This document shows positions 31,049 to 50,083 of a DNA stretch of 64,000 nt, piece by piece. The DNA is from Micromonospora sp. WMMD1082 (GTDB lineage Bacteria > Actinomycetota > Actinomycetes > Mycobacteriales > Micromonosporaceae): positions 2,807,001 through 2,871,000 of the forward strand of contig NZ_JARUBM010000002.1 of NCBI RefSeq assembly GCF_029626175.1, written 5' to 3'. Under the pieces are notes generated by a model. That model worked only from the letters and a program-made list of their open reading frames with translations. It was not told the DNA's origin and searched no databases. Within the stretch, counting starts at the first letter, position 1. Each line of letters starts with the position of its first letter. Position numbers and translations under genes: made by a program.

Positions 31049-31062
31049 TTACTGCTGGGTAA
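31049..31062. promoter_or_regulatory. TTACT-N4-GGTAA operator upstream of the etfD-like gene
   Basis: TTACTGCTGGGTAA, flanked by G and C to give the 16-bp quasi-palindrome GTTAC-N6-GTAAC. It lies 147 bp before the etfD start in a 278-bp intergenic stretch. The same pattern occurs upstream of the FadE5-like gene at 46023. Its spacing fits a TetR-type or FadR-type dimer; the regulator is not in the window. Confidence 0.6.
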
Positions 31063-31209
31063 CCTTGCGCGTAGGCTGCACTGCATGACCGAGCGGAGCG
31101 AGGTCATCGACCGGTCAGGTTGAGGTGCGGCGACGGTCGGGTCGACCGACCCCTGCCGCCGACCCGGTCGCCGCGCGCTCGACAGGCAGCAGACCGGGAG
31201 GCCAACTCG

Positions 31210-33441
31210 ATGGGCAGCGTCCAGATCGTCACCACGATCCTCGCGGCCGCCATCACCGCCGTGGCGGTGTGGCTTGCGGTACGCGCGGTCTCGAAGATGG
31301 TGGCCGTCATCCGGCTGGGTCAGCCCGACCCGACCCGGTTCGGCGACAAGGGCAGCCGTACGAAGACCATGCTCGCGGAGACCGCCGGGCACACCCGGAT
31401 GCTCCGCTGGAGCGTGGTGGGTGCGGCCCACTGGTTCGTGATGGTCGGCTTCGTCGTGCTGTCGCTGCTGGTGCTCGAGGCGTACTTCGAGGTGGTCTCC
31501 ACCACCGGTGGCCTGCCGCTGATCGGCGGCTGGACGCTCTACGGCCTGGTGACCGAGTGGATCGGCATCCTGGGTGTCGTCGGCATCGGGGTGCTGATCG
31601 CCATCCGGCTGGCGAACCGGCCGAACCGGGCGGGACGCCGGTCGCGGTTCGTCGGCTCCACCATGTGGCAGGGCTACTTCGTCGAGGCGGTCGTCCTCGC
31701 CGTACTGATCATGGGTTTCCTGATCCGCGGTTTCAAGGTGGCCACCGACCACTTCGAGTACCCGACCTGGGCCACCCCGCTCAGTCACGCGGTCGGCTCG
31801 ACGCTGCCGGCCTGGGAGGACGGCGTCAGCGTCGCCGCCCTCATCAAGATCGCGATCTCGATGACCTGGCTCATCGTGATCTCGCTGAACGTGACGATGG
31901 GTGTCGCCTGGCACCGCTTCCTCGCCTTCCCCAACATCTTCTTCAAGCGGCAGCCGGGCGCGGCCGGCTCGGGTCTCGGCGCGCTGCGGCCGATGATGAG
32001 CGACGGCAAGCCGCTGGACTTCGAGGAGGCGGACCCGGAGAAGGATCAGTTCGGGGTCGCCCACGTCGAGCAGTTCACCTGGAAGGGCCTGCTGGACTTC
32101 AGCACCTGCACCGAGTGCGGCCGGTGCCAGTCGCAGTGCCCGGCCTGGAACACCGCCAAGCCGCTGTCACCGAAGTTGCTGGTGCTCAGCCTGCGCGACC
32201 ACGCGTACGCCAAGGCGCCCTACCTGCTGGCCGGCGGCGGCAAGGACCTCACCGGCGAGGAGAAGGCCACCGCCGCCCAGCTTGCCCACCTCGACGTGCT
32301 GGCACTCGCCGAGGCGGAGAAGCCGCTGATCGGTGACGCCGAGTCCGGTGGTGTGATCGATCCGGACGTGCTCTGGTCGTGCACCACCTGCGGCGCCTGC
32401 GTGGAGCAGTGCCCGGTGGACATCGAGCACGTCGACCACATCGTCGACATGCGTCGCTACCAGGTGCTCATCGAGTCGAGCTTCCCGTCCGAGGCCGGTG
32501 TGATGCTGCGCAACCTGGAGAACAAGGGCAACCCGTGGGGTGCCCCGCCGAACACCCGGGAGGACTGGACCAAGGGCCTCGACTTCGAGGTGCCCCGGGT
32601 CGGCGAGGTCGACGACTTCGAGTACCTGTTCTGGGTGGGCTGTGCCGGCGCGTTCGAGGACCGGGCCAAGAAGACCACCCGGGCGGTGGCCACGCTGCTG
32701 AACGAGGCGGGCGTCTCCTTCGCCATCCTCGGCGAGGGCGAGACCTGCACGGGCGACCCGGCCCGCCGGATCGGCAACGAGTTCGTCTTCCAGATGCTCG
32801 CCCAGCAGAACGTCGAGACCCTCAACGAGGCGTTCGAGGGCCGGGAGAAAGCAACGCGCAAGATCGTCGCCACCTGCCCGCACTGCTTCAACACCCTGGG
32901 CAACGAGTACGGCCAGCTGGGCGGCGAGTTCGAGGTGGTGCACCACACCCAGCTGCTGGCACACCTGGTCGGCACCGGCCGGCTCACCCCGGTGCAGCCG
33001 ATCGACGGCGGGGTGACCTACCACGACCCGTGCTACCTCGGCCGGCACAACCGGGTCTTCACCCCACCGCGCGAGGTGCTCGGCGCGGCCCTCAATGGCG
33101 GCCAGAACGGCGCAGCCGGCGCGGGCCGTGACGGCGGCCTGGTCGAGATGCCACGCAACAGCGAACGCTCCTTCTGCTGCGGCGCCGGTGGCGCCCGGAT
33201 GTGGATGGAGGAGCGGATCGGCAAGCGGATCAACGTGGACCGGGTCGAGGAGGCCATGTCCACCGGGGCGAGGACGGTCGCCGTCGGCTGCCCGTTCTGC
33301 TCCACGATGCTCAACGACGGGGTGAACGGCAAGGGCGCCGGCGAGCAGGTCGAGGTGGTCGACGTCGCGAGCGTCCTGCTCCGTTCGGTCCGCCCCGAGC
33401 AGGCCGCGGGCGCCGAGGAGAACGCGCCGGTCGCCGGCTGA
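31210..33441 (+). CDS. etfD: Membrane iron-sulfur oxidoreductase, EtfD-like (ETF:quinone electron transfer)
   Basis: 743 residues from ATG 31210 with GGGAGG upstream. Five or six membrane helices in residues 1-260 resemble a cytochrome/NarI-type module. Then come two 4Fe-4S motifs (CTECGRCQSQC from about residue 300, CTTCGACVEQC from about 391) and CCG-type cysteine-rich regions (CPHCFNTLGNEY, HDPCYLGRHN, CCGAGGARMW, GCPFCSTML). This is the heterodisulfide-reductase-like architecture of mycobacterial EtfD (Rv0338c), which accepts electrons from acyl-CoA dehydrogenases through ETF. It shares an upstream motif with the FadE5-like gene at 46 kb. It is somewhat shorter than the mycobacterial protein. 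Confidence 0.88.
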   Translation: MGSVQIVTTILAAAITAVAVWLAVRAVSKMVAVIRLGQPDPTRFGDKGSRTKTMLAETAGHTRMLRWSVVGAAHWFVMVGFVVLSLLVLEAYFEVVSTTGGLPLIGGWTLYGLVTEWIGILGVVGIGVLIAIRLANRPNRAGRRSRFVGSTMWQGYFVEAVVLAVLIMGFLIRGFKVATDHFEYPTWATPLSHAVGSTLPAWEDGVSVAALIKIAISMTWLIVISLNVTMGVAWHRFLAFPNIFFKRQPGAAGSGLGALRPMMSDGKPLDFEEADPEKDQFGVAHVEQFTWKGLLDFSTCTECGRCQSQCPAWNTAKPLSPKLLVLSLRDHAYAKAPYLLAGGGKDLTGEEKATAAQLAHLDVLALAEAEKPLIGDAESGGVIDPDVLWSCTTCGACVEQCPVDIEHVDHIVDMRRYQVLIESSFPSEAGVMLRNLENKGNPWGAPPNTREDWTKGLDFEVPRVGEVDDFEYLFWVGCAGAFEDRAKKTTRAVATLLNEAGVSFAILGEGETCTGDPARRIGNEFVFQMLAQQNVETLNEAFEGREKATRKIVATCPHCFNTLGNEYGQLGGEFEVVHHTQLLAHLVGTGRLTPVQPIDGGVTYHDPCYLGRHNRVFTPPREVLGAALNGGQNGAAGAGRDGGLVEMPRNSERSFCCGAGGARMWMEERIGKRINVDRVEEAMSTGARTVAVGCPFCSTMLNDGVNGKGAGEQVEVVDVASVLLRSVRPEQAAGAEENAPVAG

Positions 33442-33457
33442 CCGATGGCGTACGCGA

Positions 33458-33489
33458 GCGCGGCGGCACCCGCACCGGTGCCGCCGCGC
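33458..33489 (+). terminator. Terminator after the etfD-like gene
   Basis: A perfect 13-bp stem (GCGCGGCGGCACC with its complement) and a 6-nt loop, 16 bp after the stop, followed by CGCTTTGGCATTT, one of the few terminators here with some T richness. Confidence 0.85.
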
Positions 33490-33508
33490 CGCTTTGGCAT
33501 TTACGAAC

Positions 33509-33520
33509 GTAACTGTAACG
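33509..33520 (+). promoter_or_regulatory. GTAAC direct repeat upstream of the first NlpC/P60 gene
   Basis: GTAACTGTAACG contains two GTAAC units six bases apart, 176 bp upstream of the hydrolase start. GTAAC-like direct repeats are reported for the wall-stress regulator MtrA in actinobacteria, so this is a candidate site. No riboswitch-like conserved elements are seen in this leader. Confidence 0.3.
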
Positions 33521-33695
33521 AATTGGCCGACACCCTTTGTGTGCGACCGGTCGCGCAAAGGTGAATGATCCGTTGGTCGCCTTGATTCCGTACGGCGGCT
33601 TCCCTAATGTGAGGCACCGACCGTCGCGGGTCGTCTGTCTCGCCTCCTACCGTTCGCGGGACGCCCGGTGGTCGGTTGCAAAGGAGTCGCTGCCG

Positions 33696-34700
33696 GTGGC
33701 AACCATGCCCCTTCATCGTCATGCGCCGGGACGATCCCGTCCGGGCGGGCTGCGCAGGGCCGCCCGCCAACTGGTCGTTCTGGTCGCCGCCGCCGCGGTC
33801 GGTGCCGGCCTGCTCGCCGCCCCCGCGTACGCCGAGCCCTCGGTCGACGAGATCGAGGCGCAGATCGACAAGCAGTGGCAGAAGCTGGAGCCCACCATCG
33901 AGCAGTACAACAAGGTGCGCGCTCAGCTGAGGGTCAACCGGCAGAAGTCGGCGGACCTGCAGAAGAAGATCCAGCCGCTGGCCCTGGAATCCGAGCTGGC
34001 GATGAACCGGGTGGCCGATCTCGCTTCCCGCTACTACATCACCGGCCCGTCCCAGGAACTCGGCGCGGTGCTGCTCAACGCGAAGCCCGACGAGCTCGGC
34101 GAGCAGATGGCCCTCCTCGACCGGCTCGCCGCGCAGGAGCGTCGAGAGCTTGATGGCGTCATGAAGATCCGGAAGAAGTACGACGACCAGAAGGCCAAGC
34201 TCGACGCGTTGATCGCCGACCAGGAGGCGAAGGAAAAGCAACTGGCGGCGAAGAAGAAGCAGATCGACGGCGAGATCAAGCGGCTTGAGCGGTCGTTGCC
34301 GGTGACCACGGTGAAGACCACCAACTGCCCGACCATCAACGGTGTCGTCAGCGCCGCGGCGCGGACCGCCATCAAGACGGCGTGCGAGCAGGTCGGCAAG
34401 CCGTACGTCTGGGGAGCCACCGGGCCGAACTCGTTCGACTGCTCGGGCCTGACCCAGTACGCGTACAAGGCCGCCGGCATCTACCTCACCCACTACACCG
34501 GTGCCCAGTGGAACGAGGGCAAGGCCATCTCCCGGGCCGACGCCCGCCCCGGCGATCTCGTCTTCTTCCGCAGCGACGTGAGCCACGTCGGGATCTATCT
34601 GGGCAACAACCAGATGGTCCACGCGGCACGGGCCGGCAAGCCGGTCAACGTCTCTCCGATCACGACCATGCCGGTGGCCGGCTTCCGTCGCCCCGGCTGA
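33696..34700 (+). CDS. Secreted NlpC/P60 peptidoglycan hydrolase with coiled coil (RipA-like)
   Basis: 334 residues from GTG 33696 with AAGGAG nine bases upstream. A signal peptide (residues 1-47, ending PAYA), a long coiled coil (about 50-195) and a C-terminal NlpC/P60 domain (about 218-334) with Cys249 in NSFDCSGLTQYA, His297 in DVSHVGIYLG and the following HAARAGKPV. It cleaves stem peptides, probably for daughter-cell separation. The coiled coil may hold the enzyme inactive or bind an activator (an FtsX/EnvC-type analogy). A paralogue lies directly downstream. Confidence 0.93.
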   Translation: MATMPLHRHAPGRSRPGGLRRAARQLVVLVAAAAVGAGLLAAPAYAEPSVDEIEAQIDKQWQKLEPTIEQYNKVRAQLRVNRQKSADLQKKIQPLALESELAMNRVADLASRYYITGPSQELGAVLLNAKPDELGEQMALLDRLAAQERRELDGVMKIRKKYDDQKAKLDALIADQEAKEKQLAAKKKQIDGEIKRLERSLPVTTVKTTNCPTINGVVSAAARTAIKTACEQVGKPYVWGATGPNSFDCSGLTQYAYKAAGIYLTHYTGAQWNEGKAISRADARPGDLVFFRSDVSHVGIYLGNNQMVHAARAGKPVNVSPITTMPVAGFRRPG

Positions 34701-34766
34701 GTAGTCGACGGACAGCGCCGCTGAGGCTCGGCGGTCGACGCCGCTGAGCGGGCGCGCAGGAACGCC

Positions 34767-34800
34767 CGAGGGCCCCCGGTCAAGTTGCCGGGGGCCCTCG
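34767..34800 (+). terminator. Terminator between the two NlpC/P60 genes
   Basis: A perfect 13-bp stem (CGAGGGCCCCCGG with its complement) and an 8-nt loop, 66 bp after the first hydrolase stop. It separates that gene from the riboswitch-controlled second one. Confidence 0.88.
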
Positions 34801-34926
34801 TCGCTGTCGGATGTCAGCACCGACAGTGACGGTGCGGATCTGTTGCGTATCGACGCCGATCGTCCCTACGCTGGGCAATCGTCGGCCCGGTAGCAGATCC
34901 GCCCACCGGGGCGGTAACGGTCCGAC

Positions 34927-35041
34927 ACCGTCGAGTCGCTTCCGAGCGAGCCGGGGACCCAGGTACCCGGGGTGAATCCGCGATCGTCGCGGTAGGGCGC
35001 CCCCTCCCCGCCCGAACCCGTCAGCTAACCCGGTAGGCGGT
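34927..35041 (+). promoter_or_regulatory. ydaO/yuaA-type c-di-AMP riboswitch
   Basis: The leader carries the conserved segments of the ydaO/yuaA aptamer in order: GCCGGGGACCC, GGGGTGAATCCG, GGTAGGG, CCCGAACCCGTCAGCTAACC and GGTAGGCGG. P1 can form between ACCGTC (34927-34932) and GGCGGT (35036-35041). The class binds c-di-AMP and usually turns expression off. In actinobacteria it precedes wall-hydrolase genes such as rpfA and NlpC/P60. The aptamer ends 25 bases before the GTG start and the ribosome site lies just past P1, so a translational or short terminator switch is possible. Together with the terminator it accounts for 34701-35066. Confidence 0.88.
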
Positions 35042-35066
35042 ATGGGAAGAAGGAGTACGGAGCCCG

Positions 35067-36107
35067 GTGGCACACCATGCCCCGCGGCCACCGTCGCAGC
35101 GGCCCGCCTTGCCGGGCCGCCCGCCGGATGCGCCGCGTTTCCGCTGGTACCGCTGCACCACCGCACTTGCCGCACTCGCCGCGACCGCCGTGATCCTGAC
35201 CGGTGGCGCGGCAGCGGCCCAGGCCGATCCGACGGTCGCCGACATCGAGCGCCAGATCGACGAGGACTGGAACCGGCTCGAACCCGTCATCGAACGGCAC
35301 AACGCCACCCGACAGGACCTGGCCGCGAAGCGGCGGCAGGCCGACGCCCTCGCCGCCCGGATGGCACCACTGGAACGCCAGGTGGACGAGGCGATGGACC
35401 GGGTCGGCCGGCTGGCCGCCGGGGCGTACAAGGGAGAGCAGGTACGGGCCGTCAACACCCTGCTGGGCAGCCGGTCGCCGGGCGAGGTCATCGAACAGCT
35501 CGGCCTGCTCGACCGCTACGCCCGCTACCAGCAGGAGGACGTGCGGCACGCGAGTGGCCTGCGCGACGAACTCGCCGCCGCCAAGGCCGGACTGGACCGC
35601 ACCATCAACCAACTGGCCCGCACCGAGGCCGAACTCGCGGAGAAGCGGCGGCAGATCGACGCCGAGATCGACCGGTTGCAGCGGCTGCGCACCCAGGCGT
35701 ACGGCCGGGGGAGCGGTGGCCCGCTGCGACCTGCGCCCTGCCCGGCCGGCTATCCCGGCGGGCCGGCCGGCGAGGCGGTCACGTTCGCCTGCGCCCAGAT
35801 CGGCAAGCCGTACTCCTGGGGTGCCGAGGGGCCGAACGCGTACGACTGCTCCGGGCTGATGCTGGCCTCGTGGGCGCGGGCCGGGGTGGCGCTGCCGCAC
35901 AACGCGGCGCGGCAGCGTCAGGTCACCGCCTCGGTCAGCCGCAGCGCGCTGCGCCCGGGCGACCTCGTCTTCTACTACCGGGACCTGCACCACGTCGGCA
36001 TGTACGTCGGTGGTGGCTGGGTGGTGCACGCCTCCCGCGCGGGTCAGCCGGTGAAGATGAAGCGGCTGGACGGCAGCCCCATCCACAGCTTCGGCCGGCC
36101 CGGCTGA
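35067..36107 (+). CDS. Secreted NlpC/P60 hydrolase under c-di-AMP riboswitch control
   Basis: 346 residues; GTG 35067 with AAGGAG 11 bases upstream. A signal peptide (residues about 1-53, ending AAAQA), a coiled coil (about 55-215), then an NlpC/P60 domain (about 230-346) with Cys261 in NAYDCSGLMLAS, His309 in LHHVGMYVG and HASRAGQPV. A paralogue of the preceding hydrolase with the same layout. The riboswitch ties its level to c-di-AMP, a signal of wall stress and osmolarity. Confidence 0.93.
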   Translation: MAHHAPRPPSQRPALPGRPPDAPRFRWYRCTTALAALAATAVILTGGAAAAQADPTVADIERQIDEDWNRLEPVIERHNATRQDLAAKRRQADALAARMAPLERQVDEAMDRVGRLAAGAYKGEQVRAVNTLLGSRSPGEVIEQLGLLDRYARYQQEDVRHASGLRDELAAAKAGLDRTINQLARTEAELAEKRRQIDAEIDRLQRLRTQAYGRGSGGPLRPAPCPAGYPGGPAGEAVTFACAQIGKPYSWGAEGPNAYDCSGLMLASWARAGVALPHNAARQRQVTASVSRSALRPGDLVFYYRDLHHVGMYVGGGWVVHASRAGQPVKMKRLDGSPIHSFGRPG

Positions 36108-36183
36108 GGCGTTCGGGCGTACGACGGTGGGGCCTGCGCGATCCCGGTGCGGGCCCCGCTGGCGGCGGCTGACCGCGGCGGGG

Positions 36184-36762
36184 TCAGCGGGTGGGCCAGG
36201 TGCGCCAGTTCTGCCACGCGCGGCTCGGCGTCGGGCCGCGCTGGCCCTGGTAGCGCGAGCCGTAGACGGCCGAACCGTACGGGTGCTCGGCCGGCGAGGA
36301 GAGCCGGAAGACGCAGAGCTGGCCGATCTTCATGCCGGGCCAGAGAGTGATCGGCAGGTTGGCCACGTTGGACAGCTCCAGGGTGACATGGCCGGAGAAG
36401 CCGGGGTCGATGAAGCCGGCGGTGGAGTGGGTGAGCAGGCCGAGCCGCCCAAGGCTCGACTTGCCCTCAAGCCGGCCGGCGAGCTGGTCGCCCAGCGAGA
36501 TTACCTCCAGCGTGGAGGCGAGCACGAACTCACCCGGGTGCAGCACGAAGGGCTCGCCGTCGGGCACCTCGACCGCCGAGGTCAGGTCGTCCTGCCGGGT
36601 GGCCGGGTCGATGTGGGTGTACAGGTGGTTGTTGAAGACCCGGAACAACGTGTCCAGGCGTACGTCGATGCTGGACGGCTGCACCAGCGTGGGCTCGAAC
36701 GGTTCGAGCGCCAGCGTGCCTGCCTTGATCTCGGAGACCAGGTCCCGGTCGGAGAGCAGCAT
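36184..36762 (-). CDS. dcd: dCTP deaminase
   Basis: 192 residues from ATG 36762 ([12 protein letters not shown]), the family's usual start; there is no strong ribosome site. Motifs: [11 protein letters not shown] near residue 27, [20 protein letters not shown] near 110 with the catalytic Glu/Arg/Ser region, and the C-terminal [15 protein letters not shown]. It makes dUTP from dCTP; some actinobacterial members are bifunctional with dUTPase activity. Its promoter region is shared with the PPOX gene and holds a perfect SOS box 50 bp from its start. Confidence 0.96.
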
Positions 36763-36811
36763 CGCCACACCATAGCTGTCGGTGTGCGACCTGCGTGTCG
36801 GGCTACCCGCT

Positions 36812-36827
36812 TCGAACGTGTGTTCGA
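36812..36827. promoter_or_regulatory. Perfect LexA-type SOS box between dcd and the PPOX gene
   Basis: TCGAAC-GTGT-GTTCGA matches the actinobacterial LexA consensus (TCGAAC-N4-GTTCGA) at all 12 arm positions. It lies 14 bp before the PPOX ATG, abutting TAAGAT (36828-36833), a likely -10, and 50 bp from the dcd start. Repression by LexA of one or both genes is inferred. Confidence 0.78.
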
Positions 36828-36840
36828 TAAGATGGCAGGC

Positions 36841-37380
36841 ATGGCTTCCTGGTCCGAATTCGCCGCTGACGAGCCTCGACTCGCCAACGGGATCCGCCTT
36901 CTCATGCAGCAGTACGGCCCGGGCTTCGGCTACCTGGCCACGGTCCGCGCCGACGGCGGGCCCCGGGTGCACCCGGTCTCCCCGGTGATCACCGACGACG
37001 GTCTCTTCTGCTTCGTGATCGACTCGCCGAAGCGGCGCGATCTGGAACGCGACGGGCGCTACGCGCTGCACTCGTTCCCGCCGGAGGAGAGCGACGACGA
37101 GGCATACGTCGCCGGCCGCGCCCGGCCCGTGACCGACGATGCCACCGTCGCCCGCCTGGCCCTCGCGGCACGGGCCGCGCCGCACGCCGACTGGCGGCTC
37201 TTCGAGTTCACGGTCGACGTGGCGATGCTCGCCCGGCACGGGCACGCCGGTGCCGGTGGGCCGAGCGAGCCGGCGGTCCGGCCGGCCGTCCAGGTCTGGC
37301 TCGATCCGTCCGGCACCGTCCCGGAGGCCGTCCGTCCGGCACCGGCCCGCCTGGGCAGGCACCACCGCCGCGCGGCCTGA
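36841..37380 (+). CDS. Pyridoxamine 5'-phosphate oxidase-family (PPOX) flavin protein
   Basis: 179 residues from ATG 36841; an in-frame ATG at 36832 is possible and, given TAAGAT just upstream, a leaderless message is plausible. The split-barrel fold is shown by [21 protein letters not shown] near residue 29 onward and [20 protein letters not shown], typical of FMN- or F420-binding PPOX proteins. Substrate unknown. The SOS box at its promoter suggests induction by DNA damage, unusual for this family. Confidence 0.85.
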
Positions 37381-37389
37381 GCACCCGTG

Positions 37390-37427
37390 ACCGGTGCCGG
37401 CCCGTGGGGAAGCGGGCCGGCACCGGT
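37390..37427. terminator. Bidirectional terminator between the PPOX and M43 genes
   Basis: A perfect 15-bp stem (ACCGGTGCCGGCCCG with its complement) and an 8-nt loop, 10 bp after the PPOX stop and 15 bp from the end of the convergent protease gene. Confidence 0.88.
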
Positions 37428-37441
37428 CGTACGGGCTGATG

Positions 37442-38443
37442 CTAGGCGCGGTAGGCGTTCCAGGCGTTGATCATCCGGGTGGCCTGACCCGGGGTGAACT
37501 GGTACATGCAGGTGTCGTACGAGTAGTCCATGAAGTTGGTGATCGGGTCCAGGCCCGGGCTGGAGCAGGTGTCCCGACCGGTCGGGCAGCCGCTGGCCGG
37601 TGAGGCCTCGGCGGGGGTGTCCGCGACCTGGTCGCCCTGACCGGAGCAGCCGCCCTGGAAGGTGTGGTAGAGGTTCAGCCAGTGCCCGACCTCGTGGGTG
37701 CCGGTGTCGCCCTGGTTGTAGTTGGTGGCGGTGCCACCGGGCAGCGACTCGCTCAGCACGACCACGCCGTCCATCACGTTCAGGTTGCTCTGCGGGAAGG
37801 TCGCCCAGCCGAGCAGGTTGTTGCTCAGCTGGCCGAGGTAGACGTTGAGCGTCGCCTTGCCGCCCTGACGCAGCTGGGTCTTCATCTGACGCTCGGCCGT
37901 CGAGCCCTGCCGGATCGGGTACCACGACGTGTTGGTGACCCGGTTGATGCTCTGCAACTGGAAGGCGAAGGCGGTGGCGGCCCCGCCCGTCGCGCCGCTG
38001 AACGACTGGTTCAGCACGCTGATCTGCGACTGGATCATCGAGTCGGGGATGTTCCCGCCGGCCCGGGTGGTGTCCCGGCGGATCACGTGCACCACGACCG
38101 GGATGGTGACGGAGGCGGCGGCTGCCTGGGTGCTCAACGTACGCTGCCCGACCCGCTTGGCCCGCTCCTGGAGCAGGTCGGCGAACTCGGCCTCGCGCTG
38201 GTGGACCTGCGCGATGGTCAGCTCGTTCGGGTCGTGCTCGACGGCGGTGCCGCCCTTGGCCCGGGCCAGCGTGCCCGTCGGGTCCGCACACACCTCGTCG
38301 GCGGTGACGGCGGCCGATGCCGGGCTCGCGGTCGTGGTGGCGGCCGGCAGCAGGCCGACCGCGGCCACGCCCAGCACCAGCGCGAGTGACGTCGATGCGA
38401 TGCCGGTCATACGCCGGCTCAGCAGGACGGGACGTAGTCCCAT
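37442..38443 (-). CDS. Secreted zinc metalloprotease, peptidase family M43
   Basis: 333 residues; ATG with AGAGGTGG upstream. A signal peptide (residues about 1-44, ending ASA), a propeptide, then the catalytic domain: the zinc site [11 protein letters not shown] near residues 248-258 and the Met-turn region [16 protein letters not shown] near 305. This is the M43B (cytophagalysin/pappalysin) type seen in actinobacteria. Cys pairs in the C-terminal half suggest disulfides. It appears monocistronic. Nothing convincing is seen in 38444-38672 apart from its own upstream region. Confidence 0.94.
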
Positions 38444-38672
38444 AAGCCCACCTCTTTCTGGCGGCGCGACCGGGGGTTGTGTCGCGCCGTGCGGAAAATG
38501 TGGGGAGGACGTTACAACCCATCGACAGATTTGAGAATGGCTATGTGTTGCCGGCAGGAAACTTCTTGCTGGCCCGACGCCGGCCGTGCTGCCTGGTCCC
38601 GCTGGCCTGGCCGCCGTCGCCCGGGAGCGGGTGGCGGCGGGGTGCCTGGGTGCACCGTGGCGGTGACTCAGG

Positions 38673-38678
38673 TACAGT
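38673..38678 (+). promoter_or_regulatory. Probable -10 of tRNA-Gly
   Basis: TACAGT ends 10 bp before the tRNA. No good -35 hexamer is visible. Confidence 0.4.
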
Positions 38679-38688
38679 GATCCCGCTC

Positions 38689-38759
38689 GCGGGTGTAGTT
38701 CAATGGCAGAACATCAGCTTCCCAAGCTGACAGTGCGGGTTCGATTCCCGTCACCCGCT
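38689..38759 (+). tRNA. tRNA-Gly (anticodon CCC)
   Basis: Acceptor GCGGGTG pairs with CACCCGC, the D-arm has TTCAATGGC, the anticodon stem-loop is CAGC-TTCCCAA-GCTG (anticodon CCC), and the T-arm is GCGGG-TTCGATT-CCCGT. The discriminator is T and no CCA is encoded. A terminator follows. Confidence 0.96.
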
Positions 38760-38765
38760 CCGGGT

Positions 38766-38804
38766 TGAAGCCCAGGTCAGGACAGGTTCCCGACCTGGGC
38801 TTCA
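38766..38804 (+). terminator. Terminator of tRNA-Gly
   Basis: A perfect 13-bp stem (TGAAGCCCAGGTC with its complement) and a 13-nt loop directly after the tRNA, followed by TTCAT. Confidence 0.88.
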
Positions 38805-38881
38805 TTCATGCCGGTGTCCGTCGGGCCCGGTCCGTGACACGAGAGCCGACTCCGTCTGTTCCGGCAGCGTCCGACCGTGCG

Positions 38882-39469
38882 TCAAGGCCCGCTTTGACGT
38901 GCGGGGCCGGGCCGGCTCGGTACGGCTCCGTCCTGCCAGCGGTAGAGGTCGCGCAGCAGGGAAATCTCGGCGCCGTGATGGATCAGCTCCCTGTTGACGT
39001 GCAGGATCCTGCTCTCCATGGGAAACCGCTCGGGGCCCACCGTGGGAGGATTCTCTAGGTCAGCGTCCGAGAGGTCGCGAACCCCCGCGTTCCATTTCCC
39101 ATACATCTCGTCGAGCTGTTTCAGCGCCTCGTCAGCGGTCCCCGCGTAGGCGAATGTCTCGGAGTCGACGTCCTGGCCGCCGAAGTACCATCCGACCCGA
39201 TAGCCCAGACACGAGACGATAATGTGCGCCAGCCGCCAGGCAATCGTGGTCACTGGCGCCGGCACCGGACCAGGGAACACGTAGTCCATCGTCCATCCCC
39301 CCGAACCTTCCGACATCGATGCGGCCGACGTGCCCCGTGGGCGGATACTCCAACAGCCGCCCACCGGCTCCCAGAAGTACTCCTCGTCGGTAAGACCCTC
39401 CAGCCGTGGCCGCAGGTTCTTGCGCCAGTACCAGTCCAACTGCTCCGCGAGCTGCTCGCTTCTTGTCAC
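38882..39469 (-). CDS. DinB-superfamily protein
   Basis: 195 residues; GTG start. Shaped like the DinB/DfsB helical-bundle family: EQLDWYWRKNLRPRLEGLTD, then EEYFWEPVGGCWSIRP, WRLAHIIVSCLGYR with the metal-ligand His, and HVNRELIHHGAEISLLRDLY. These bind a metal and often act in thiol (mycothiol) transfer or resistance; the substrate is unknown. The G+C content is visibly lower than in neighbouring genes. Start of an accessory-looking patch downstream of tRNA-Gly. Confidence 0.8.
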   Translation of the reverse strand: MTRSEQLAEQLDWYWRKNLRPRLEGLTDEEYFWEPVGGCWSIRPRGTSAASMSEGSGGWTMDYVFPGPVPAPVTTIAWRLAHIIVSCLGYRVGWYFGGQDVDSETFAYAGTADEALKQLDEMYGKWNAGVRDLSDADLENPPTVGPERFPMESRILHVNRELIHHGAEISLLRDLYRWQDGAVPSRPGPARQSGP

Positions 39470-39599
39470 TTCCGCACCCTACGTACAACGGAGACCTGGC
39501 TGCGACACGCGCGGACGCCGAGCCATTCCCGCCGCGTGCCGCCCGCAGTCTGCGGGCGTGCCCGATGCGTAGGGGTCAAGGGCGATGGCTTGGCGGCAT

Positions 39600-40202
39600 C
39601 TAGAGTCCGGACGACTGCTGGGAGAGCCAATCCCGGTGCTGTGCCTTCAGCGCGTCCCGTTGCTCTCGGGTCGGCAGAATGACATCGGCTCCACCGTCGT
39701 AGGGGTGATACAGCCATCGAAGGTCAGCCGGCGCGAGGATCACGTTTGACAACTCGTCGTCGGCGACGGCCCTCAACAGGGTGTCAATCGCGCCCGATCG
39801 CCAAGGGATCGTCTCGCCGTAGAGCTGTGTATAGGTGCGGTACTCAGGCTCTTCCTCGGGGTCTGCCAGCAGGGTCTGCCAGTGCCATGCCGACGGCGCG
39901 ACTTCTGAACGCCTCGGCCACATCTGGGGGGTGGCTGCCGGGCCCTCTGTCCACTCGCTGGTTACAACAAGAAGGACGGCACCTGGACCGAGCTCTGACA
40001 GCACCGTGTAGTGCCGGTCGAGCACGATCGCGTACTCGGTCTCGTTGTCTGCGTACCGCTTCGATCCTGGCAGGCTGTGGAACCTCACCCACCGATCCGG
40101 GTATTGGCCGCGAAGCCAGTGGGCGAACGGTGGGCACTCGGACCAGCGCTGCTCCCACAGCTCGGTCAAGGCCGGCGGATTCAGTTCTTGGCTCGGTGTC
40201 AC
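39600..40202 (-). CDS. DUF3885-like hypothetical protein
   Basis: 200 residues, starting MTPSQELNPPALTELWEQRW. Probably the DUF3885 type: DRWVRFHSLPGSKRYADNE, YAIVLDRHYTVLSEL, and RWLYHPYDGGADVIL near the C-terminus. It has no signal peptide or membrane segment. Function unknown; such proteins often occur as immunity-like or stress-related accessory genes in actinobacteria, but that is weak. Convergence and G+C match the neighbouring DinB-like gene. Confidence 0.65.
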   Translation of the reverse strand: MTPSQELNPPALTELWEQRWSECPPFAHWLRGQYPDRWVRFHSLPGSKRYADNETEYAIVLDRHYTVLSELGPGAVLLVVTSEWTEGPAATPQMWPRRSEVAPSAWHWQTLLADPEEEPEYRTYTQLYGETIPWRSGAIDTLLRAVADDELSNVILAPADLRWLYHPYDGGADVILPTREQRDALKAQHRDWLSQQSSGL

Positions 40203-40284
40203 CGCGCTGTTGTACCTCAGGTCTAGGGAGGGTCGCTCCCAGGGGCCAGGCGGAATCTGCCCCCGGTGTACTAGCGTCAGGGGT

Positions 40285-40677
40285 GTGAGGAAGCGTGGCG
40301 CGAGGTATCAGCCGCTCACGGTGGTGCGCCTGGGTGCCCTGCTCGTCGGAGCGGACGAGGCGCGGCGGTGGCGGTTGGTGGCGGAGTTCCTGGAGGAGTA
40401 CCGCTGGGAGCCGTCCGATGTGCGCGCTGGTCTGCTGGAGCAGGAACCTTCGCCTACCGGGGACGAGCACTGGGACGTGTTCCTCGCCGCATTGACAGAG
40501 CACTTGGCGGCCAAGGATGGGCGCGGTGCGCCGTCGTGGGTCGAGACGCGGTCGCTGCGGCGTTTCTGGTTTCCCTTCAACACTCGTGCCGCCCGGGTTG
40601 ACGCGGTGGTGCACGCGCCAGCGGCATTCCGTCGTCGCGGCGTGTATGTGTCGGCCCAGGAGTTGAACGTCGCGTGA
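40285..40677 (+). CDS. Upstream partner of a nucleotidyltransferase module (antitoxin-like)
   Basis: 130 residues from GTG 40285; TACTAG 11 bp upstream could be the -10 of a near-leaderless message. Mostly helical N-terminus (TVVRLGALLVGADEARRWRL, VAEFLEEYRWEP), an acidic middle with EHWDVFLAALTEHLAAKDG, and a C-terminal RFWFPFNTRAARVDAVVHAP with FRRRGVYVSAQEL. No catalytic motif is recognised. Its stop overlaps the start of the nucleotidyltransferase gene (GTGA), so the two proteins are made together. By position and size it resembles the regulatory partner of AbiE/type IV-like toxin-antitoxin pairs. This role is inferred. Confidence 0.7.
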   Translation: MRKRGARYQPLTVVRLGALLVGADEARRWRLVAEFLEEYRWEPSDVRAGLLEQEPSPTGDEHWDVFLAALTEHLAAKDGRGAPSWVETRSLRRFWFPFNTRAARVDAVVHAPAAFRRRGVYVSAQELNVA

Positions 40678-41204
40678 GCGTCGATGATCCGCTATTGGAC
40701 CGTGCCGCGATCGAGGACGCTTTCCGGCGGCTCGGGGACCGGCTGGCAAGGCGAGGCGTGGTTGCGGATCTGTACATCTTCGGTGGGGCCGCCATGGCTC
40801 TGGCCTACGACGCACGGCGGGCGACCCGCGACATTGATGCCGTGTTCCAGCCGCACGGGGTAGTGCTCGACGAGGCCCGAGCCGTCGCCGACGAACTCGG
40901 CCTGCCGCGCTGGTGGCTCAACGAACAGGCGAGTGCCTACGTCGCTCCCGGCGGCGACGCGACAGCGCCTCGCGTATTCGATCATCCCGGCCTGCGGGTC
41001 GCGGCAGCGTCTGCGGAACACCTGTTGGCTATGAAGGTGCTTGCCGCACGTCGTCGGGACGCCGACGACATCCGTTTTCTGGTTGACCACCTTAGGTTGA
41101 CCAGCGTCGAAGAGGTCCTCGGTCTGTGTGCGGACATCTTCCCCGAGGAGGAGGTTCCGGGCCGGGCAAGACTCGTACTCGACGACGTTTTCGACGGTCT
41201 GTAG
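40674..41204 (+). CDS. MNT-fold nucleotidyltransferase (DUF6036/AbiEii-like)
   Basis: 176 residues; GTG start overlapping the upstream stop. The nucleotidyltransferase signature is clear: a glycine motif in LYIFGGAAMALAYDARR followed 15 residues later by the two metal-binding acids in TRDIDAVF. A third region AASAEHLLAMKVLAARRRDADDIRFL contains the Lys and Asp-Asp typical of DUF6036/AbiEii-type proteins. Such enzymes modify RNAs or proteins with nucleotides in toxin-antitoxin or abortive-infection systems. It is the candidate effector of the pair; the target cannot be deduced. Confidence 0.82.
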   Translation: MSVDDPLLDRAAIEDAFRRLGDRLARRGVVADLYIFGGAAMALAYDARRATRDIDAVFQPHGVVLDEARAVADELGLPRWWLNEQASAYVAPGGDATAPRVFDHPGLRVAAASAEHLLAMKVLAARRRDADDIRFLVDHLRLTSVEEVLGLCADIFPEEEVPGRARLVLDDVFDGL

Positions 41205-41318
41205 CCCGACTGCTGGAACGAATGCATCCCGCCCAGCCACACCGCGCCCCGGCAGACCTGCGCGGTACCAAGGCGGGCCGGGATGACCGGGGGCGTCGGT
41301 CGCCGTACGCTGGCGATC

Positions 41319-42197
41319 ATGCGGTTTGGCATCGTGATCCTGCCCGATCAGCGCTGGTCGGTGGCCCAGCACCGGTGGCGGCAGGCCGACGAGTGGGGCT
41401 TCGACCACGCCTGGACGTACGACCATCTGGGCTGGCGTGACCTGGTGGATGGGCCCTGGTTCGACTCGATCACCACGCTCACCGCCGCCGCGACGGTGAC
41501 CTCCCGGATCCGGCTCGGCACGCTCGTCGCGTCGCCGAACTTCCGGCATCCGGCCGCCTTCGTCCGGCAGGTGACCGCGCTCGATGATGTCTCCGGTGGG
41601 CGGCTGCTGCTGGGGCTCGGCGCGGGTGGCATCGGGTTCGACTCGGCGGTGCTCGGCGGGGAGACGCTTCCGCCACGGCAGCGGGTGGAGCGGTTCGCCG
41701 AGTTCACCGAGTTGCTCGACGCGATTCTGCGGCAGGACGGGACGACGTGGCGCGGTGACTGGTTCGCGGCGGTGGACGCGCGCAACAACCCGGGCTGCGT
41801 CCAGGCGCCCCGGGTGCCGCTCGTGGTGGCCGCCAACGGTCCCCGGTCGATGCGGCTGGTCAGCCGGTTCGGGCAGGGCTGGGTGACCACCGGTCCCGGC
41901 GGCGACGACCTGGCCGAGTGGTGGGCCGGGGTGGCCGAGCTGGTCGCCCGGCTCGACTCGCGGCTCGACGCCGATGGACGGGACCCGGCCAGCCTGGACC
42001 GTTACCTCTCGCTGGACTCGGCACCGGTCTTCTCGCTGAGCAGCGCGCAGTTCTTCGCCGACCAGGTCGGCCGCGCGGCGGAGCTGGGGTTCACCGACGT
42101 GATCACGCACTGGCCCCGGACGAGCAGCTGGTACGCCGGCGACGAGGCGGTCCTGGTGGACGTCGCCACCCGCCTGCTGCCCGAGCTGCGCGGCTGA
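41319..42197 (+). CDS. LLM-class flavin-dependent oxidoreductase
   Basis: 292 residues; ATG 41319 (MRFGIVILPDQRW), 114 bp after the module above. Luciferase-like TIM barrel: GFDHAWTYDHLGW near residue 28, RIRLGTLVASPNFRHPA near 64, GGRLLLGLGAGGIGFD near 94, PLVVAANGPRSMRL near 168. It probably uses F420 or FMN. Substrate unknown. Confidence 0.9.
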   Translation: MRFGIVILPDQRWSVAQHRWRQADEWGFDHAWTYDHLGWRDLVDGPWFDSITTLTAAATVTSRIRLGTLVASPNFRHPAAFVRQVTALDDVSGGRLLLGLGAGGIGFDSAVLGGETLPPRQRVERFAEFTELLDAILRQDGTTWRGDWFAAVDARNNPGCVQAPRVPLVVAANGPRSMRLVSRFGQGWVTTGPGGDDLAEWWAGVAELVARLDSRLDADGRDPASLDRYLSLDSAPVFSLSSAQFFADQVGRAAELGFTDVITHWPRTSSWYAGDEAVLVDVATRLLPELRG

Positions 42198-42221
42198 CAG
42201 TCCGGGCCGCTCCGGATCTGG

Positions 42222-42653
42222 TCACGTGCCGAGGTCGCCGGTGGGCACGCCGCCGTCGCCGGCGGACACCAGCCGGAAGCGTACGCACACGATCCTGCTG
42301 TCTCCGGTGACCGGGGTGCCGGCGCGGGCCCAGTAGGCGGCGTGCCCGGCGCGCCACTCCTCGATCGAGCGGTCGCCCTCCCCCTCGGCGCGGGCGAAGT
42401 CCCACGGCACCTCGCCGAAGCGGCTCACCTCGACGCCGGTCACCTCGACCACGCCCACCAGGGCGTCCTGGTCGTCAACGAGGGCGAGTCGCTCGCCGAC
42501 GTGCTCCACCTCCTCGCCCTCCTCGGCGTACTCGTCGAGCAGGCCGGCGGTGGCGGTCTTCACGCGGGCCAGCACGAGGGTGTTGAGGTGCGTCCGTAGT
42601 TCGCCCGGGGTGCCGAGGGCGAGGGTGCGGAGCGCGCCGATCCGTGGCCACAT
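42222..42653 (-). CDS. ASCH-domain protein
   Basis: 143 residues from ATG 42653 (MWPRIGALRTLALG). ASCH features: KTATAGLLDEYAEEGEEVEHVG, RLALVDDQDALVGVVEVTGVEV and a conserved SIEEWRAGHAAYWARAG near the end. ASCH domains have an RNA-binding (PUA-like) fold, and some hydrolyse modified nucleosides. Role here unknown. It is convergent with the LLM oxidoreductase, 24 bp apart. Confidence 0.87.
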   Translation of the reverse strand: MWPRIGALRTLALGTPGELRTHLNTLVLARVKTATAGLLDEYAEEGEEVEHVGERLALVDDQDALVGVVEVTGVEVSRFGEVPWDFARAEGEGDRSIEEWRAGHAAYWARAGTPVTGDSRIVCVRFRLVSAGDGGVPTGDLGT

Positions 42654-42755
42654 CCTGCCGACGCTACCGACCGGCCGTACGCCCGGAGGCGCCTTCGCCG
42701 TCGCACGGCCGGCCGCAGAGGAGTACGGTCGATGCTCGACGAGAAGGAGACGTCC

Positions 42756-43271
42756 ATGGCGGACCGACGTGCGGTGCTCATCCCGGGACGCGGGTACGAC
42801 ACCCGCTACCCCCTCTTCCTCTACCTGGGTGAGGCGCTGCGCCGGGTCGGTTTCGGGCTGCACGGGATCTCCTGGCAGGTACCGGACGACTTCGACATCG
42901 ACACCATCGGCAGGTGGGTGTGCGACCAGGTCGCCCCCACCCTGACCGAGCGGACGGACCTGCTGGTCGGCAAGTCGCTCGGCTCGCTCGCCGCGCCGCT
43001 CGCGGCCCGTCATGGGCTGCCCGCCGTCTGGCTCACCCCGCTGCTGCACCGTGGCGAGGTGATCGACGCGCTACGCCGGGCCACCGCGCCGTTCATCCTG
43101 GTCGGCGGCACCGCGGACTCGTCCTGGGACGGCTCGGTCGCCCGCCGGTTGACCCCGCACGTGCTGGAGATCCCGGGCGCCGACCACGCCCTCATGGTGC
43201 CCGGCCCCCTGGCCCACTCCGCCGAGGCCCTAGGCCAGGTCTGCACCACAGTAGAAACCTTCGTCCGCTAG
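42756..43271 (+). CDS. Small alpha/beta hydrolase
   Basis: 171 residues; ATG 42756 behind GAAGGAGA (the ATG 24 bases upstream lacks one). Alpha/beta hydrolase with the nucleophile Ser in LLVGKSLGSLAAP, an acid in FILVGGTADSSWDG and a late His in IPGADHALMVPG. Short for the family. It resembles KANL3/Tex30-like or dienelactone-hydrolase-like proteins. Substrate unknown. It overlaps the opposite-strand phosphoribosyltransferase by four bases at their 3' ends. Confidence 0.8.
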   Translation: MADRRAVLIPGRGYDTRYPLFLYLGEALRRVGFGLHGISWQVPDDFDIDTIGRWVCDQVAPTLTERTDLLVGKSLGSLAAPLAARHGLPAVWLTPLLHRGEVIDALRRATAPFILVGGTADSSWDGSVARRLTPHVLEIPGADHALMVPGPLAHSAEALGQVCTTVETFVR

Positions 43272-43819
43272 GTGGGGAGGTCGGTGGGGGTTAGGAGGGG
43301 GATTATTCGTAGCTCCTCGGCCACTGGGGGTGGGCAGGTGGCGACTATGGTGGCGGTGCCTACCGGCTCGGCGCCGCGGGCCGCGCAGATCTCGTAGATG
43401 GCGCGTACCTGGGCGGCGGTGGCGACCCAGTCGTCCACCACCAGTGCCCGGTCGCCGGGGCCGAGGTGCCGGTCGTGGATGGCGAGGTCGACCTGCCGCC
43501 CGCGGAAGTCGGGTGGGCTCTGCGCCCAGGTCAGCGGCCCGGCGGGCAGTCGCCCGTCGCCCGGCTTGTGCGCCGCCACGAAGCCCACGCCGAGCGCGGT
43601 GGCCGCCAGCGGCCCGAGGAGGAACCCGGTGACGGCCGGGGAGACGACCACGGTGGGCCGGGCCGCCCGGAACGGCGCGACCAGCGCGGGGCCCAGCGCG
43701 GCGAGCGTCGCGGGGTCGCGCCACCAGCCGGAGATGTCGCTGACCAGGTGGGTCGCGCCCGGACCGGGATCGATCCATCCGAAGAGGTCGACCAGGCGTT
43801 TTCTCAGTTCGGCGGGCAT
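43268..43819 (-). CDS. Phosphoribosyltransferase (adenine/uracil type)
   Basis: 183 residues from ATG 43819 (MPAELRKRLVDLFGWI). The type I PRTase motif ALVVDDWVATAAQ at about residues 128-140 is the PRPP loop (usual form VDDxxATG, here with A instead of G); VSPAVTGFLLGPLAATALG precedes it. It probably salvages a purine or a modified base. Substitution of the loop glycine may change substrate or activity. Confidence 0.82.
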   Translation of the reverse strand: MPAELRKRLVDLFGWIDPGPGATHLVSDISGWWRDPATLAALGPALVAPFRAARPTVVVSPAVTGFLLGPLAATALGVGFVAAHKPGDGRLPAGPLTWAQSPPDFRGRQVDLAIHDRHLGPGDRALVVDDWVATAAQVRAIYEICAARGAEPVGTATIVATCPPPVAEELRIIPLLTPTDLPT

Positions 43820-43963
43820 GTCACCATCCTGCGCCAGCGACGCACCGCCCGCCCTCACCGCACGCCGGTCCGCCTCCACCGCGTACCGGCCCGGCGGCCC
43901 ATCTCGGATCGGATGATCGGCTTCACGTATCACTGCAATTGCGGACATAGCATCATGATCAGG

Positions 43964-43994
43964 TTGACTTCCGAAGTGCTTCTCTCGCTATGGT
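43964..43994 (+). promoter_or_regulatory. Putative promoter of the RlpA-like gene
   Basis: TTGACT (43964-43969) and TATGGT (43989-43994) with a 19-bp gap, 37 bp before the gene; the region is AT-rich. Confidence 0.45.
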
Positions 43995-44031
43995 CCGACC
44001 CGATTTGATCCCCTGAGAAAGGACCGGGCCG

Positions 44032-44673
44032 GTGGCTGGTAGGCACTCCCGTACCCGCAGGATCACCTCGCCGGCCGCGCTGACGGCCAGCGCCGTGGTG
44101 GCCGTCGCCCTCGCCGTCGGGGGCACCGTCGGTGCCGTACGGCTGACCGCCGGTCCGGAGCCGGTGCGGCCGGCGGCGATCGACCTCTCGCCCACCATCG
44201 CCGCGAGCGACCTGCCGACCGGCGCACCGACCGAGTCGCCGAGTGCCAGCGCGACGCCGAGCCCGACGGCGAGCGCGACGCCGAGCCCGACCGCGAGCCG
44301 CACCGCGCAGGCGCCGTCGCGCAGCAAGGAGCGTACGGCCAGCCCGACGCCGAAGCCGACGGCCACGAAGACGACGGCCCGGCCGGTGGTGGACACCGGC
44401 TCCTGCGGCGCGTCCTTCTACTGGCAGGGGCAGATGACCGCCAACGGCGAGACGTTCAACCCGGAGCAGTTGACGGCCGCCCACAAGACGCTGCCCTTCA
44501 ACACCAAGGTGCGGGTGACCAACCCGAGCAACGGCAAGTCCGTCACCGTACGCATCAATGATCGGGGCCCGTTCATCGACGGGCGCTGCCTGGACCTGTC
44601 GCGGGCGGCGTTCGCGGAGATCGCCTCGCTCGACCTCGGTCACATCGAGGTCCGGTACGAGGTGCTCGGCTGA
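44032..44673 (+). CDS. RlpA-like double-psi beta-barrel protein
   Basis: 213 residues; GTG start with AAAGGA upstream. An N-terminal hydrophobic segment (about 15-38) is a signal or anchor, then a long Thr/Ser/Pro linker with repeats (SATPSPTA type), and the RlpA domain (about 122-213): [57 protein letters not shown]. RlpA-type domains bind or cleave denuded glycan. Actinobacterial members are secreted wall enzymes, often resuscitation-linked. The catalytic Asp in INDRGPF is present. Confidence 0.88.
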
Positions 44674-44773
44674 GCCCGTGTCGCGCGGCGATCGGCTGCT
44701 GCCCCGCCACTTCGCGGGCAGAACAGTCTCGTCCGACGGGCCAGGTTCATTCTTTCGCTCACGTCCATCGGGC

Positions 44774-45901
44774 ATGCTGTCGGATGTACGCACGCAACTC
44801 CTCCAGCCGGGCCGTGGCCCGCTGAGCCCCGGATCCCGCGCCGGCCTCGGCGCGGCCCTCATCCTGCTCGCGATCGTCTCGGCGGTCGAGTTGGCGGACG
44901 GCCGCGCGACGAACTACATCGCGCTGATGGTGGCCGCCCCGTTCCTGGCCGCGGCGCTGGCCTCCTGGCGGATCGTGCTCGGCGTCGGCGCCGCCGCCTC
45001 CGTGCTGGGCGCGGCCTTCGCCATGGCCGAACGGACCGTCTCGCTCTCCACCGCCGTCGCCGTGGCCGGCATCGCGATGGGTACCGGTATCGCGGCGGCG
45101 GTGGCGTCGGTACGGCAACGACAGGCGGAGCAGATCGCCGAGTTGTCGAAGCTCGCGACGGTGGCGCAGCAGGCGGTGCTGCGACCGCTCGGCCCGCGGG
45201 TGGGCGCGCTGTCGGTGGCCGGTCGCTACATCTCGTCGACGGCCACCGCGGAGATCGGCGGCGACCTGTACGAGGCGATCGACACGCCGTACGGCGTACG
45301 CATGATCATCGGTGACGTGCGTGGCAAGGGCCTGGAGGCGGTCCGGCTGGCGAGCATCGTGCTCGGTTCGTACCGGCACGTCGCGTACGAGCGGGCCGAC
45401 CTGCGGGCCGTCGTGACGGACCTGGACCGGGCGGTGGCCCGCAACGTGGGTGACGAGGACTTCGTCACCGCGGCGCTGGTGGAGGAGCGGGGCGGCACGC
45501 TCACCATCGTCAACTGTGGACACCCGGCCCCGCTGCTGCTGCGCCGTGGTGCGGTGATCCCCCTCGAACCGCCGGCACCGGCGCCCCCGCTGGGCTTCAT
45601 GCCGGTGGTCCGGCCACGGGTGGAGCGGCTGGAGCCGGGCGACCGCCTGCTGCTGTTCACCGACGGGCTCGGCGAGGCGCGGCGGGACGGCGAGTTCTTC
45701 CCCACCGCCGACCGGGCCTGGCGGCTGCTCGGGCACGGCACGGTCGCCGACGGATTGGCCTCGCTGGAGACCGCGCTGGTCGAGTGGGTGCACGGCCGGC
45801 TCGACGACGACATCGCGCTGGTGCTGATGGAGTACACGGGCTCACCGGGCGGTGCGACGGTGGCGGTGCCGAGCTGGGAGGTCGGCGCGACCGAGGGGTG
45901 A
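44774..45901 (+). CDS. RsbU/SpoIIE-type PP2C phosphatase, membrane-anchored
   Basis: 375 residues from ATG 44774 (MLSDVRTQLLQPG). Four or so membrane helices (about 25-115), a short linker (QAEQIAELSKLATVAQQAVL) and a SpoIIE-like phosphatase domain (about 145-360): ATAEIGGDLYEAIDTPYG, MIIGDVRGKGLEAVRLAS, FVTAALVEERGG, LLLFTDGLGEARRDG, and DDIALVLMEY. It dephosphorylates anti-anti-sigma factors in partner-switching signalling. No anti-sigma partner is adjacent. Confidence 0.92.
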   Translation: MLSDVRTQLLQPGRGPLSPGSRAGLGAALILLAIVSAVELADGRATNYIALMVAAPFLAAALASWRIVLGVGAAASVLGAAFAMAERTVSLSTAVAVAGIAMGTGIAAAVASVRQRQAEQIAELSKLATVAQQAVLRPLGPRVGALSVAGRYISSTATAEIGGDLYEAIDTPYGVRMIIGDVRGKGLEAVRLASIVLGSYRHVAYERADLRAVVTDLDRAVARNVGDEDFVTAALVEERGGTLTIVNCGHPAPLLLRRGAVIPLEPPAPAPPLGFMPVVRPRVERLEPGDRLLLFTDGLGEARRDGEFFPTADRAWRLLGHGTVADGLASLETALVEWVHGRLDDDIALVLMEYTGSPGGATVAVPSWEVGATEG

Positions 45902-45997
45902 CGCCGAGCTGGATATGACGGTCGGTGACGCCCGCTGACCGGAACCTGAACCCTAGGTGTGTAATGCCTGTCACCTCCGAATGTGGCTTGTCGCTGC

Positions 45998-46036
45998 CTA
46001 CCCGCGAGTAATACAGTCTGAGTTACTGATCGGTAA
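45998..46036. promoter_or_regulatory. Pair of TTACT-N4-GGTA(A) sites upstream of the fadE5-like gene
   Basis: The forward site is TTACTGATCGGTAA at 46023-46036 (GTTAC-N6-GTAAC when flanks are added). The second copy is inverted at 45998-46011 (minus-strand TTACTCGCGGGTAG). The centres are 25 bp apart and the pair ends 27 bp before the start codon. The motif matches that before the etfD-like gene. Confidence 0.6.
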
Positions 46037-50054: not shown

Positions 50055-50083
50055 TTACGACACCGTAGGTTACCTTCGGGTAG
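50055..50083. promoter_or_regulatory. Two tandem GGTTAC-N6-GTAG-like elements between hlyIII and pxpB
   Basis: TTACGACACCGTAG (50055-50068) and TTACCTTCGGGTAG (50070-50083) are each preceded by GG and 15 bp apart. Each is an imperfect TTAC-GTAA palindrome, like the fadE5/etfD motif but not as close. It sits in the 106-bp region between two divergent genes. Confidence 0.4.

Follow-up and report, generated by a model that had tools for sequence, protein, structure and literature searches.

Acyl-coenzyme A (acyl-CoA)-responsive control of β-oxidation is known from Escherichia coli FadR, Bacillus subtilis FadR and the proteobacterial PsrA/FadP, and in some cases includes the genes for the electron-transfer flavoprotein (ETF). 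The E. coli protein is of the GntR type, and B. subtilis FadR and PsrA/FadP use other operators. Here we analyze a palindromic motif, TTACT-N4-GGTAA, that stands upstream of two genes, etfD and fadE5, in a 64,000-nucleotide stretch of Micromonospora sp. WMMD1082 (contig NZ_JARUBM010000002.1, positions 2,807,001 to 2,871,000; G000:C2:2807001-2871000 in our labels, G000 being this 7.44-Mb genome). The whole stretch is called the window, and positions given without a contig refer to it. The names EtfD and FadE5 rest on an earlier sequence-only reading of the window and on the mycobacterial proteins to which we assume they correspond.

In mycobacteria, FasR (Rv3208) is an acyl-CoA-sensing TetR regulator of fas-acpS that is reported to recognize three inverted repeats upstream of fas and to dissociate in the presence of acyl-CoA of at least C16 (PMC7382501). 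McGuire et al. (2012) describe clusters of two to three TAC-N6-GTA elements before Rv2524c (fas) and before the desaturase genes Rv3229c and Rv3230c (PMC3388012). The sites described below share with these the arrangement of TAC, 6 bp and GTA, clustered upstream of fatty-acid genes; they differ in that fadE5 does not occur in the main text of that paper, which in its accessible part assigns the motif no regulator (PMC3388012). A third mycobacterial protein, MadR (Rv0472c), is an acyl-CoA-responsive TetR repressor of desA1/desA2, and the consensus reported for it, TCTGTGxxxxxxxGT (PMC8872791), reads differently from our fadE5 consensus, TTACYSRYSRGTAA, when the two are simply read side by side. 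A literature search that reached few subscription journals found no paper tying either fadE5 or etfD to a TetR regulator and no ChIP-seq (chromatin immunoprecipitation sequencing) target list for Rv3208, and the papers found gave no answer as to how actinobacteria switch β-oxidation or coordinate ETF and EtfD with the dehydrogenases.

Within the window, exact copies of the motif lie at 31049-31062 and 46023-46036, and an inverted copy with one mismatch at 45998-46011. Checked letter by letter, these are the three copies that the sequence-only reading had reported, and its view that they are unlikely to be there by chance is borne out, the window being expected to hold 0.14 matches at ≤1 mismatch and three being reached in 0 of 100 shuffles. 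The Pfam domains of the two genes likewise agree with the identities it had given them. The features are as follows, the operators being predicted and the promoters read by eye.

31049-31062, + strand: predicted operator of etfD, TTACTGCTGGGTAA, 147 bp upstream of the EtfD-like start codon
31049-31077, + strand: possible etfD promoter (-35 TTACTG at 31049-31054, 17 bp, -10 TAGGCT at 31072-31077)
31210-33441, + strand: EtfD-like membrane Fe-S oxidoreductase, with 4Fe-4S and two cysteine-rich CCG domains
45988-46017, + strand: possible fadE5 promoter (-35 TTGTCG at 45988-45993, 18 bp, -10 TACAGT at 46012-46017)
45998-46011, - strand: predicted operator 1 of fadE5, TTACTCGCGGGTAG (CTACCCGCGAGTAA on the + strand), one mismatch, within the spacer between -35 and -10
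46023-46036, + strand: predicted operator 2 of fadE5, TTACTGATCGGTAA, about the expected transcription start
46064-47920, + strand: FadE5-like acyl-CoA dehydrogenase, with acyl-CoA dehydrogenase domains including PF12806

This motif is very probably a genuine and old operator of a regulon for fatty-acid degradation and electron transfer, and a single switch protein that senses fatty acids very probably governs both fadE5 and etfD. The stronger evidence is the footprint in other genomes, the count of targets in the Micromonospora genome itself being modest. All of the 80 best named relatives of fadE5 carry an exact TTACY-N4-RGTAA in the 150 bp upstream, and all 80 have at least two sites there at ≤1 mismatch. 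By their names we take these relatives to be Micromonosporaceae throughout, with Micromonospora closest. Because they come from close genomes, we drew 101 genomes from 16 families across the order (f-numbers below are family codes) and searched them with FadE5. The upstream region (500 bp; 454 in G021) was readable in 94 of these; G013, whose contig ends at the gene, and G054, with a rearranged match on a short contig, were left out, as were five genomes with no clear ortholog (G031, G050, G078, G082 and G096). At least one site at ≤1 mismatch is found in 93 of the 94, an exact site in 75 and two sites in 76, so the conservation on which the sequence-only reading had staked its case is present. 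The reversed motif, our negative control throughout, occurs upstream of fadE5 in 0 of 94. Four fadE paralogs were examined and none has the motif upstream. When stretches of ≤20 kb around fadE5 were scanned in 20 genomes, a site lay upstream of fadE5 in 19 (the contig of G013 ends), and there were six further matches, three in the fabG4-thiolase region, one at a TetR-type gene described below as T1, and two elsewhere.

The paired sites also keep a largely constant spacing. They lie 22-27 bp apart in 73 of the 76 pairs (31, 32 and 59 bp in the other three), and these 73 pairs yield the palindromic consensus TTACYSRYSRGTAA, which is its own reverse complement. The free N4 of the sequence-only reading needs refining, since the central four bases are constrained. 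The etfD site of the window differs from the consensus at one inner base. A TANNNT sequence directly follows operator 1 in 55 of the 73 paired orthologs and operator 2 in 0 of 73, and in 36 cases a -35-like hexamer, with ≤2 mismatches to TTGACA, is found 17 or 18 bp ahead of the -10 position, a count made without a control. Operator 1 would therefore fill the promoter spacer and operator 2 would lie near the start site, an arrangement that suits steric repression. At etfD, the single operator would cover the -35 element of the promoter read by eye.

Conservation extends to etfD. Thirty orthologs were fetched out of the 99 genomes with a match, and a site at ≤1 mismatch is present in the 400 bp upstream of 23 of them (reversed control, 1/30). 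By family, it is found in 11/11 orthologs of f1, 1/1 of f5, 4/4 of f13, 2/2 of f15, 4/6 of f4 and 1/2 of f16. In G007 (family f8), etfD is preceded by a tandem pair, and the etfD site of G070 reads CTACTGCTGAGTAA.

Does the motif mark a wider regulon in the genome of the window? The exact pattern has three matches in its 7.44 Mb and the reversed pattern none; the third copy lies 10 bp upstream of a DUF4442 gene, a fold that we associate with acyl-CoA thioesterases. A scan with TTACYNNNNRGTAA at ≤1 mismatch returned 53 places (50 listed, together with L227, which was examined separately), against 30 for its reversed form. Among the 50 listed, 10 precede acyl-CoA or ETF genes, namely etfD, fadE5 (two places), the DUF4442 gene, two thiolases, etfBA, the SCP2 and acyl-CoA dehydrogenase (ACAD) genes divergent from T1, the fabG4-thiolase region and methylmalonyl-CoA mutase. 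The etfBA site is 45 bp upstream of etfB, and both ETF subunits are confirmed by Pfam. No acyl-CoA or ETF gene was recognized at the 30 reversed-motif places, so that the genome scan proposed by the sequence-only reading came out in its favor and places sites before ACAD, thiolase and ETF genes above chance. Eight of nine open reading frames (ORFs) at control places were scanned with Pfam (L394 was left out); three had no match, and the others matched methyltransferase, NADH dehydrogenase subunit, TetR, NPP1 and peptidase families. With matched settings, a called gene start lies within 200 bp of 28 of the 50 motif places, compared with 8 of the 30 for the control. Four weak places, at a short-chain dehydrogenase/reductase (L210), an aldehyde dehydrogenase (L217), an alpha/beta hydrolase (L112) and a transketolase/aceE-like gene (L223), were excluded from the tally of fatty-acid genes. 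The etfD, fadE5, SCP2-ACAD-T1 and fabG4-thiolase places all lie within ~94 kb (G000:C2:2838049-2931775, that is, window position 31049 onward together with L027/L275).

The same classes of gene recur elsewhere. Six genomes that lack T1 contain 34 exact sites versus 7 reversed, and 22 of the 34 precede fadE5 (9), thiolase (5), etfD (3), AMP-binding acyl-CoA-synthetase-like genes (2, start codons picked by eye), etfB (1), ACAD (1) and methylmalonyl-CoA mutase (1). The remaining sites stand before citrate synthase, zinc alcohol dehydrogenase-like, GDSL lipase or unrelated genes, or inside ORFs. A search of six genomes for the tandem pattern on both strands gave 26 hits versus 6 for the reversed control; the places include fadE5, etfD, T1 regions, fabG4-thiolase, thiolase, fatty-acid desaturases and an FAD/GMC-type oxidoreductase, and some are unrelated.

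The sequence-only reading had predicted a TetR- or FadR-like repressor encoded elsewhere, and it is indeed likely that the regulator is a TetR protein whose gene lies outside the window; T1 and T2 are two good candidates. They are among the three proteins of the genome that carry a TetR_C_46 domain.

G000:C2:2922231-2922869: T1, TetR_C_46 protein, 51 kb past the right edge of the window; SCP2 and ACAD genes diverge from it
G000:C2:1988896-1989507: T2, FasR ortholog by sequence
G000:C2:1241390-1241710 (domain): T3, after a fatty-acid desaturase gene

T2 is clearly an ortholog of FasR (Rv3208), as judged by its sequence. It matches the FasR structures 6o6p and 6o6n with E values of 5e-57 and 7e-56 (the next best, 3f1b, has 1e-18), and the stretch SKPVLYQHF is identical between them. 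DUF3107 and DEAD-helicase genes lie downstream of T2, an order that we take to be that of the Rv3208 region. T2 is present in 99 of the 101 genomes of the order (E≤2.2e-52), a range as wide as that of the fadE5 operator, with G010 and G093 as exceptions. The DNA also agrees: the FasR co-crystal oligonucleotide, TACCCGTACGTAGAACTCGCCAGTA (PMC7382501), includes TACCCGTACGTA on one strand and TACTGGCGAGTT on the other, and compared by eye the fadE5 sites are closely spaced TAC-N6-GTA-type palindromes of the FasR operator class. We favor T2 because of the FasR match, this distribution, the architecture of the FasR DNA and the TAC-N6-GTA clusters (PMC3388012); ranking T2 first and T1 second is the best explanation of the data we have.

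T1 initially seemed the better candidate, given the tandem sites upstream of its own gene and its proximity. It would repress itself, SCP2-ACAD, fabG4-thiolase, fadE5 and etfD. Two palindromes lie between T1 and the divergent SCP2-ACAD genes, and tandem TAC-N6-GTA elements occur within 250 bp upstream of 23 of 30 T1 orthologs (control, 0/30). In G004 (family f5) the T1 sites, TTACCGGCAGGTAA and TTACTGGCGGGTAA, show the same motif as fadE5, and in several genomes T1 lies near fadE5 and the fabG4-thiolase region; in several, T1 and fadE5 share a contig at distances from a few kb to tens of kb. T1 may correspond to Rv0238, as is suggested by the f8 genomes, where it lies near fabG4-thiolase and fadE5, in the gene order of that region; f8 includes mycobacteria, since the T1-like protein of G007 has the same sequence as one recorded for Mycobacterium crocinum. 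In a survey of TetR proteins, Rv0238 and Rv3208 (FasR) are among five kept in all mycobacteria analyzed, M. leprae included (PMC4482099). However, T1 orthologs are found in just 39 of the 101 genomes (E≤3e-34), and the fadE5 site is retained in all 55 of the 94 readable genomes that lack T1 (exact in 38), so the operator is often present where T1 is not. G070, of the same family as the window, carries two exact sites at fadE5 without having a T1, and it was such genomes with an intact fadE5 pair that demoted T1. In addition, the T1 and fabG4-thiolase sites of the f8 genomes examined (TTACTCCRRAGTAA-like) differ in the center from the fadE5 sites. That T1 is the regulator therefore seems unlikely to us.

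Genomes of the order carry many TetR-like proteins, and with five TetR proteins kept in all mycobacteria analyzed, FasR being one (PMC4482099), the sites might instead be bound by another conserved regulator, of the TetR type or not. We find this rather improbable, in view of the same architecture in the published FasR DNA and of the nearly fitting distribution of T2. As for the conserved letters being core promoter elements and not operators, TTACTG could act as a -35 at etfD, and the first fadE5 copy abuts TANNNT in most pairs. Yet the second copy, equally strongly conserved, falls outside the hexamers, the consensus is fully palindromic and the four fadE paralogs examined go without the motif, which leaves this idea with hardly any likelihood.

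Several observations weigh against an operator read by T2. G034 is the sole one of the 94 fadE5 upstream regions with no site (its second FadE5 copy is outside the count). Seven of the 30 etfD loci have none (f3, 0/3, and f11, 0/1, among others), and none was found upstream of etfD in G010 and G093. In these two genomes, 94% and 93% complete, no T2 was detected, yet they carry one and two fadE5 sites, respectively. The upstream region of T2 itself has no site, unlike that of T1. Mycobacterial FasR is reported as an activator of fas and not as a repressor of degradation (PMC7382501). In the genome of the window, 40 of the 50 places listed have no recognized acyl-CoA or ETF gene beside them, and 24 of the 50 fall inside a called ORF (a few of these calls are doubtful); we treat most of the 40, weak as they are, as chance, including window 50070-50083 in a carboxyltransferase-domain ORF.

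On balance, we consider it reasonably probable that an acyl-CoA-responsive TetR repressor of the FasR subfamily, most likely T2, uses these sites as operators and controls β-oxidation and its electron transfer. What the sequences show directly are the sites with their conservation, spacing, adjacent promoter-like hexamers and neighboring genes, and the candidates with their distribution; that a protein binds there and represses, what its ligand is and that it is T2 are inferred. The regulon would comprise FadE5, ETF (etfBA), EtfD, thiolases and other acyl-CoA genes. When long-chain acyl-CoA is lacking, repressor dimers would occupy the palindromes; of the two at fadE5, one would lie between -35 and -10 and one about the start site, and because they would occupy both spacer and start, RNA polymerase would be blocked. 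Long-chain acyl-CoA would release the repressor and turn on the whole route. T2 may share targets with T1. The proposed system resembles FasR in its TAC-N6-GTA-type palindromes and in T2 being an ortholog by sequence; it differs in that the role known for FasR is to activate the synthesis of fatty acids, whereas the sites here lie on or beside degradation promoters, which suits repression.

Related sites also occur near desaturase genes. Tandem sites at G007:C1:1768298 (L302; gene identities by Pfam) and G052:C1:483739 (L280; by likeness of letters) follow a flavin/2Fe-2S oxidoreductase gene and precede one for a fatty-acid desaturase, recalling the Rv3230c/Rv3229c clusters of PMC3388012. Others lie at desaturase genes at G000:C2:1240989-1241002 (L276/L119), G083:C1:729463 (L282) and G012:C1:1808640 (L293), with a TetR gene downstream of the desaturase in L276 (T3) and in L282 (T3-like, G083). 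The desaturase sites of G083 and G012, of the form TTACG...CGTAA, look like a related class and were excluded from the operator count; the desaturase-linked sites perhaps form a sister regulon. In G007, TTACCGATCGGTAA at G007:C1:1520679 (L299) is immediately upstream of an FAD/GMC oxidoreductase gene, cholesterol-oxidase-like by eye. Two further sequences fit the loose pattern, tandem perfect palindromes TTACCGTACGGTAA at G000:C2:1677802-1677833 (L014/L015; the ORF taken from L014 has no Pfam match) and CTACCGTACGGTAA at G000:C2:4169043-4169056 (L219), where it separates a TetR gene from an ORF that diverges from it. They share a CGTACG core and were set aside as probable sites of another regulator. 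Within the window, the ORF at 36127-37380 has a C-terminal PNPOx_N match, with the Rv1155 F420 family below the cut-off, and no Pfam match over its N-terminal ~260 residues.

More broadly, the FasR ortholog could be a master switch throughout the order, directly repressing β-oxidation and its electron path besides activating synthesis in mycobacteria. It would be a functional counterpart of E. coli FadR built on a TetR protein, and its oldest target, older than fas, would be the fadE5 operator pair; we hold this extension tentatively, with slightly more doubt than belief. A tandem fadE5 operator found across the order and common to etfBA, etfD and thiolases makes the question of how actinobacteria coordinate β-oxidation with its electron transfer open to direct testing, there being two candidate proteins. 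Should the regulator prove to be FasR, fatty-acid synthesis and degradation would both be governed by a single acyl-CoA sensor.

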